Source of the DNA: a virus
Length of the DNA stretch: 20,131 nt
Strand: one strand, 5' to 3'
IMG/VR virus record: IMGVR_UViG_3300032163_000123
Coordinates: 1 to 20,131 of that record
The translations under genes were made by a program, and so were the position numbers. Below, piece after piece: positions 1,255 through 4,080 of the stretch; the first letter of the stretch is position 1, and every line of letters begins with the position of its first letter. The notes below the pieces were generated by a model. It searched no databases and was not told the origin of the DNA. It worked only from the letters and a program-made list of their open reading frames with translations.

Positions 1255-1283
1255 TTGACGTGGGAGTTTTAAACGTGGATACT
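1255..1283 (+). promoter_or_regulatory. Predicted sigma70 promoter for a small RNA
   Basis: TTGACG (1255-1260), an exact 17-bp spacer and GATACT (1278-1283) give a good consensus match on the plus strand. The expected start, about 7 nt downstream, is A1290. No open reading frame follows; instead there are three hairpins and a terminator. Confidence 0.6.
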
Positions 1284-1289
1284 TAAACC

Positions 1290-1382
1290 ACGTCGTCGCA
1301 GACGTATTTATGCACACTCGCTCCCAAAGCGCAAGTGCATAGCACCTAGCCCCTCCAAACTCCAGTTTGGAGGGGCTTTTTG
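1290..1382 (+). ncRNA. Candidate small non-coding RNA (about 92 nt)
   Basis: The predicted transcript begins near A1290 and ends in a strong intrinsic terminator. Hairpin 1 is ACGTC (1290-1294) with GACGT (1301-1305). Hairpin 2 is ATGCAC (1310-1315) with GTGCAT (1335-1340), closed at the top by CGCT (1319-1322) with AGCG (1328-1331) around CCCAA. Hairpin 3 is the terminator. No start codon with a ribosome site lies within it. A consensus-like promoter, discrete stem-loops and a terminal U-run are the layout of a trans-acting sRNA. I do not recognise the family, and the target is unknown. It lies in a regulatory region between early operons and converges with the tRNA-Trp operon. Confidence 0.55.
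1348..1381 (+). terminator. Strong intrinsic terminator of the candidate sRNA
   Basis: AGCCCCTCCAAACT (1348-1361) pairs perfectly with AGTTTGGAGGGGCT (1364-1377), a near-perfect palindrome with an effective TCCA loop. It is followed by TTTTT (1377-1381). The T-run exists only on the plus strand, which fixes the orientation. Confidence 0.8.
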
Positions 1383-1405
1383 TTATGGCGACAAGGGCGG
1401 TAGTG

Positions 1406-1442
1406 AAAAACCTCATCTGGCTCCCGCCTTTTGAGGTTTTTT
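1406..1442. terminator. Bidirectional terminator hairpin, repeat copy 1
   Basis: AAAAACCTCA (1406-1415) pairs with TGAGGTTTTT (1432-1441), with an inner GGC/GCC pairing in the loop. A-runs and T-runs flank the stem on both strands, so it can stop the leftward tRNA operon and rightward read-through. Confidence 0.7.
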
Positions 1443-1466
1443 ATTGTGGCGACAAGGGCGGTAGTG

Positions 1467-1503
1467 AAAAACCTCATCTGGCTCCCGCCTTTTGAGGTTT
1501 TTT
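1467..1503. terminator. Bidirectional terminator hairpin, repeat copy 2
   Basis: This is an identical copy, displaced by 61 bp, with stem arms at 1467-1476 and 1493-1502. It lies directly downstream of the tRNA-Trp CCA end and is the first terminator met by the leftward operon. Confidence 0.75.
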
Positions 1504-1507
1504 ATTG

Positions 1508-1583
1508 TGGCGACAAGGGAGGGACTCGAACCCCCAACCTGCGGATTTGGAGACCGACGCTCTACCAGTTGAGCTACCGAGTC
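1508..1583 (-). tRNA. tRNA-Trp (anticodon CCA), with mismatched stems
   Basis: A 76-nt cloverleaf with encoded CCA is readable on the minus strand. It has D-arm GCTC/GAGC, anticodon loop CTCCAAA (anticodon CCA, Trp), a 5-nt variable loop, T-arm GGGGG/CCCTC with loop TTCGAGT, and discriminator G73. The acceptor GACTCGG/CCTTGTC has mismatches at 4:69 (T/T) and 5:68 (C/T). The anticodon stem TCGGT/TCCGC lacks pairs 27:43 and 31:39. D-arm and T-arm pairing and all loop signatures are intact. It follows the Trp-rich microprotein gene, whose TGA stop uses the first two tRNA bases, so it must be processed from that mRNA. It may be a functional but weak phage tRNA or a decaying one. Confidence 0.8.
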
Positions 1584-3512: not shown

Positions 3513-3647
3513 CGAGTCGCACTTGAGAGCCAGCCGTGTCAGGGGTTTTCGAGCAAGACAGTGAGGTGCTGCGGCGCGAGTTGTTTGAGGATTGTTTAGC
3601 GCCGAGCAGAGAATGAAGAAATTCCTTAACGAAACATAGGAGGTAAT
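3513..3647. other. Non-coding spacer with direct repeat and hairpin
   Basis: No supported gene. It contains the first copy of a 25-bp direct repeat (3548-3572) and an inverted repeat CGGCGC (3572-3577) with GCGCCG (3599-3604). One frame reads FEQDSEVLRRELFEDCL without a start codon, which may be a remnant of a lost gene end. Confidence 0.5.
3548..3572 (+). repeat. 25-bp direct repeat, copy 1
   Basis: The sequence TTCGAGCAAGACAGTGA, then GGTGCTGC, matches 4056-4080 at 24 of 25 positions (G against T at position 18). The two copies flank the membrane/coiled-coil gene. Confidence 0.8.
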
Positions 3648-4055: not shown

Positions 4056-4080
4056 TTCGAGCAAGACAGTGATGTGCTGC
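4056..4080 (+). repeat. 25-bp direct repeat, copy 2
   Basis: This second copy begins 3 nt after the stop codon of the membrane protein gene. It also starts a hairpin: GACAG (4065-4069) with CTGTC (4096-4100) and TACGA (4081-4085) with TCGTA (4091-4095). Confidence 0.8.

Follow-up and report, generated by a model that had tools for sequence, protein, structure and literature searches.

Small RNAs with regulatory roles are well documented in phages; OOP of lambda, for instance, is complementary to the cII mRNA and sar of P22 to the ant mRNA, both of them coding (PMC12197685). A further point of reference is the Xanthomonadaceae RNA sX13, which is encoded downstream of polA and carries 4C/5C motifs in three loops; through loops of this C-rich kind, sX13 as well as RNAs of staphylococci attach to ribosome-binding sites rich in G (PMC3771888). 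The locus described here resembles OOP and sar in that a short non-coding phage RNA with its own promoter is predicted in the regulatory part of a probably temperate phage, but it differs from them in that the opposite strand scores as non-coding, with no complementarity to an opposed coding mRNA, and in that no pairing target was found. The kind of element, a phage sRNA, is already well known; the sequence is without detected relatives.

The window, i.e. the whole stretch of DNA that was analyzed, comprises the 20,131 bases of the IMG/VR virus record IMGVR_UViG_3300032163_000123. Among its gene products are an annealing protein of the ERF type, an exonuclease of the YqaJ type and a large terminase that is T7-like. 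The large terminase of Yersinia phage YeP4 is 49% identical to that of the window and the YeP4 record has an annotated repressor, which together suggest, as far as sequence likeness goes, a temperate phage. The frames readable left of the ERF gene lie on the − strand, namely the HTH protein, small frames, tRNA-Trp and further genes; beyond tRNA-Trp this strand encodes a zinc-ribbon-like protein, then a PDDEXK nuclease and then a helicase-like fragment. The small RNA cassette is located in a gene-poor stretch with tRNA-Trp on one side and the zinc-ribbon gene on the other. The features of this region are outlined in Table 1.

Table 1 Features of the small RNA locus and its surroundings (positions in the window).
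Feature	Position	Strand	Details
Sigma-70-like promoter TTGACG-17-GATACT	1255..1283	+	9/12 consensus match; TTGACG 1255-1260, spacer 17 nt, GATACT 1278-1283
Perfect inverted repeat ACGTGG-9-CCACGT	1273..1293		Spans −10 box and start site; candidate operator
Predicted small RNA, ~95 nt	1290..1384	+	Start A1287-A1290; fold of the transcript from A1290 −46.1 kcal/mol, z −8.1
Stem-loop 1 (SL1)	1290..1305	+	5 bp, loop GUCGCA; fold prediction
Stem-loop 2 (SL2)	1309..1341	+	7-bp outer stem, 3x3 symmetric internal loop, 4-bp inner stem
10-codon ATG frame MHTRSQSASA	1310..1342	+	Within SL2, no Shine-Dalgarno
Intrinsic terminator	1348..1384	+	13-bp stem (1348-1377, 8 GC), 4-nt loop UCCA, then TTTTTGTT; tail UUUUUGUU
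Two 61-nt tandem units	1374..1495		Each with tRNA 3'-end copy (TGTCGCCA on − strand) and hairpin
tRNA-Trp (cca)	1508..1583	−	Convergent with small RNA; acceptor stem with two mismatches
Short HTH protein	1824-2012	−	Left of ERF gene
ERF gene	2135	+	Next + gene after small RNA cassette

A preliminary description of this DNA had proposed a promoter pair followed by a short gap to A1290, and both were found as claimed. The promoter match itself is weak and occurs at chance frequency: four 9/12 matches were found in 4 kb (3.5 expected) and 18 in the whole window (20 expected), and shuffled DNA gives as many. It is notable only for its position ahead of the terminator. The latter, likewise claimed as a strong palindrome with a T-run, is present and lies far above chance. 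When the entire window was scanned for folding on both strands in 60-nt windows (n = 2008), the most extreme of them was 1321-1380, which is the terminator window, and as a sequence feature the terminator is beyond doubt. An intrinsic terminator, as looked for in an independently transcribed sRNA gene, is thus at hand; no + strand gene is located upstream that it could end, the nearby genes being on the − strand. With respect to the comparison with Hfq-dependent sRNAs, the predicted RNA has the 3' tail UUUUUGUU.

Unlike the promoter match alone, the cassette of promoter and strong terminator is unusual. A strong terminator with a promoter match no more than 160 nt away was found once in the window, whereas 60 shuffles gave 0.05 on average; when the terminator was defined alike and the distance set to 20-130 nt, only one cassette was obtained in 1.46 Mb of other fetched loci, mostly from related phages. 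With the terminator taken as given, the probability that a promoter match occurs by chance in the 160 nt upstream is ~0.07, as derived from the match densities of this analysis; consequently, the promoter match may be fortuitous.

For transcripts beginning at 1287 or 1290 every helix (SL1, SL2 and terminator) is formed with a base-pair probability of ~1, and SL1 begins right at the predicted start. SL1 depends on the exact ends, being lost when the RNA begins at 1200 or runs on to 1400 (1284-1400). Three stem-loops in addition to the terminator had been counted previously; the actual number is two, SL1 and SL2. Folded without the terminator, these two give a z of −4.15 and rank around 15 of the 2008 windows, which is only mildly unusual and hence suggestive. 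The apical loop of SL2 is CCCAA, or a UCCC motif when the closing U is counted. The region had furthermore been described as free of ORFs, which holds for long ones, whereas the 10-codon ATG frame had gone unlisted; this frame, the only one present, is without a ribosome-binding site and is probably not translated.

In view of the promoter-hairpins-terminator cassette and the lack of a nearby + strand gene, the locus is best read as the source of a discrete non-coding transcript, and we assign a probability of roughly 0.55 to a small RNA gene of ~95 nt that is specific to this phage lineage and of an ordinary kind. The discrete RNA of no recognised class in the preliminary description is thereby retained in its arrangement, its distance from any + gene and its lack of an Rfam family above threshold, but it is weakened by the poor promoter, the lack of a homologue and the lack of an outstanding target.

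At gathering thresholds the Rfam search returned only the tRNA. A permissive search gave sX13 (RF02232) with 24.5 bits and an E-value of 0.035, against a gathering score of 50. The two RNAs have in common three stem-loops overall, a C-rich apical loop and a GCCCC..GGGGC terminator, and the match is largely owed to the GCCCC/GGGGC terminator. In contrast to sX13, in which the C-rich motif is carried by all three loops, CCC is present here in one loop only (loops GUCGCA, CCCAA and UCCA).

No similar DNA was found among 50,697 phage records, and neither the exact 23-mer of SL2 nor a degenerate SL2 pattern nor a 5' pattern matched any entry in IMG/VR. In the GTDB genomes one degenerate pattern gave two matches, both without the surrounding structure and terminator; as about two were expected, they were taken as chance rather than as homologues. 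When 102 other loci were searched with a covariance model of this one sequence, no match was obtained, and the second match of the model within the window was the same terminator read on the opposite strand. No close relatives of the phage were found: a search with the terminase alone gave none, and those obtained by terminase alignment are at most 52% identical and are without the left-arm genes. The relatives of the ERF protein had no tRNA and no similar intergenic DNA. The neighboring proteins were abandoned as handles to homologous loci.

The inverted repeat over the −10 box is accompanied by a third ACGTGG in the −35 region (1258-1263), where it overlaps the −35 box. The pattern ACGTGG-9-CCACGT is expected 0.01 times in the window, a value that has to be read in light of the motif having been picked after inspection. 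A generic test for triplicated or clustered 6-mers of any sequence in the window yielded 2 versus 1.3 expected, which is not significant, and the triplicated ACGTGG was therefore dropped as operator evidence. Since the motif was chosen post hoc and any repeated 6-mer cluster is expected 1.3 times, the palindrome is a possible operator as a reasonable suggestion only. Separately, an imperfect palindrome with one mismatch, TGACATGG-8-CCGTGTCA, was observed at 2073-2096 between the divergent HTH and ERF genes; its half-site resembles that of the palindrome at the small RNA promoter.

If the small RNA gene is real, host RNA polymerase would start at around A1287-A1290 and stop at the intrinsic terminator (1378-1384), resulting in a compact RNA of two hairpins and the terminator hairpin. 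The palindrome over the −10 box would then act as operator, through which a phage regulator may control expression. The RNA may base-pair in trans, most simply via the accessible UCCC loop of SL2 and the GCACCUA linker, and its targets would be mRNAs of the host or the phage with a G-rich ribosome-binding site. As the UCCC loop is of the same kind as the loops of sX13 and the staphylococcal RNAs, base pairing in trans is by analogy the most economical role to propose; confidence in any particular mechanism is low. The earlier suggestion to look for base-pairing targets in phage mRNAs brought no support: with 31 phage start regions and four RNA segments the best p was 0.015 among 124 tests, and none survives. 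Furthermore, no exact complement to the RNA of more than 10 nt was found elsewhere in the window. The more ambitious proposal, in which the phage sRNA represents a new sequence family, is governed by a phage operator and retargets host or phage translation via its UCCC loop, appears doubtful. If transcribed, the RNA would extend the short list of orphan phage sRNAs by one; the terminase family of the phage in question has members with a repressor annotated in their genomes. Targets are known for few phage sRNAs, and only a demonstrated target or an unusual mechanism would alter ideas about the class.

Since the terminator and the tandem units would halt transcription from both sides, the main rival to a small RNA gene is insulation. 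The + strand terminator and the two bidirectional units would block stray antisense transcription into the unit of tRNA-Trp and HTH protein, with a chance promoter and no functional RNA. This fits the three hairpins with + strand T-runs that stand in series ahead of the tRNA as well as the chance density of 9/12 promoter matches; however, a shield needs no two extra hairpins that form with a probability of ~1 and begin at the predicted start, and such a promoter-terminator distance is rare in the other fetched loci. We consider insulation a serious though unlikely explanation.

We regard it as improbable that the + strand RNA lowers a − strand read-through transcript by cis-antisense action or transcriptional interference, as OOP and sar do with their mRNAs. 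The target would be a transcript that runs on beyond the terminators of the tRNA in the direction of a short frame on the − strand (1236 or 1182 to ~1033). Counted from 1182, the initial 50 codons of this frame have a coding score of 0.147 (95th percentile 0.057), and the small RNA is exactly antisense to its would-be leader. Yet the opposite-strand stretch 1237-1416 has no coding signal, two terminators are situated between the tRNA and that stretch, and the frame is without homologue and without clear Shine-Dalgarno. On the − strand the hairpins are just as stable, and they could belong there to the leader of the same frame, the + T-run being accidental; with T-run and promoter match both on the + strand and no − strand promoter found in 1190-1420, we hold this to be very improbable. 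A leader-peptide attenuator for a downstream + gene was rejected, as the ERF gene lies past three terminators and ~750 nt of opposed genes.

The small RNA gene, which we prefer, is separated from tRNA-Trp by the tandem units. The previously described convergence with a tRNA operon is correct as to the convergence, but the − strand holds a single tRNA-Trp gene (1583-1508) and no operon. The hairpin of each 61-nt unit has T-runs on both strands and forms a bidirectional terminator, and the terminator hairpin of the small RNA is in register with the hairpins of the two units. Downstream of tRNA-Trp (1374-1522) a tRNA 3'-end copy, CCCTTGTCGCCA, was observed in each unit. In E. coli, tandem repeats (rtT) are located 3' of the tRNA of tyrT, and the 3' end of that tRNA recurs in every one of them. 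The units of the neighboring tRNA-Trp region, to which this comparison applies rather than to the small RNA, are likewise tandem, located downstream of a tRNA and equipped with a copy of its 3' end, but they differ from rtT in being two units of 61 nt, each a bidirectional terminator. They recall the tyrT/rtT repeats or attachment-site remnants.

The tRNA-Trp itself has two mismatches halfway along the acceptor stem, and its arms contain further ones; the gene may be in decay, or recombination may have replaced its 3' end. On the − strand a 46-codon frame (1582-1722) with a GGAG ribosome-binding site and seven tryptophans (MIFSGRSWKWGFWFRIFGCGLWLEWWNRRPWCTF...) overlaps at its end with the initial bases of tRNA-Trp; it matches no family, and its codon score is like that of non-coding DNA. 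In the − strand region 1033-1236 about 50-68 codons score as coding, followed by a very stable hairpin at 974-1026 (~ −28 kcal/mol); the downstream frame scores as non-coding, and another frame stops just before this hairpin. The frame is divergent from the small RNA promoter and no homologues were found. Finally, a 25-nt direct repeat (3548-3572 and 4056-4080, 96% identical) is located 3' of two + strand genes of the early operon.
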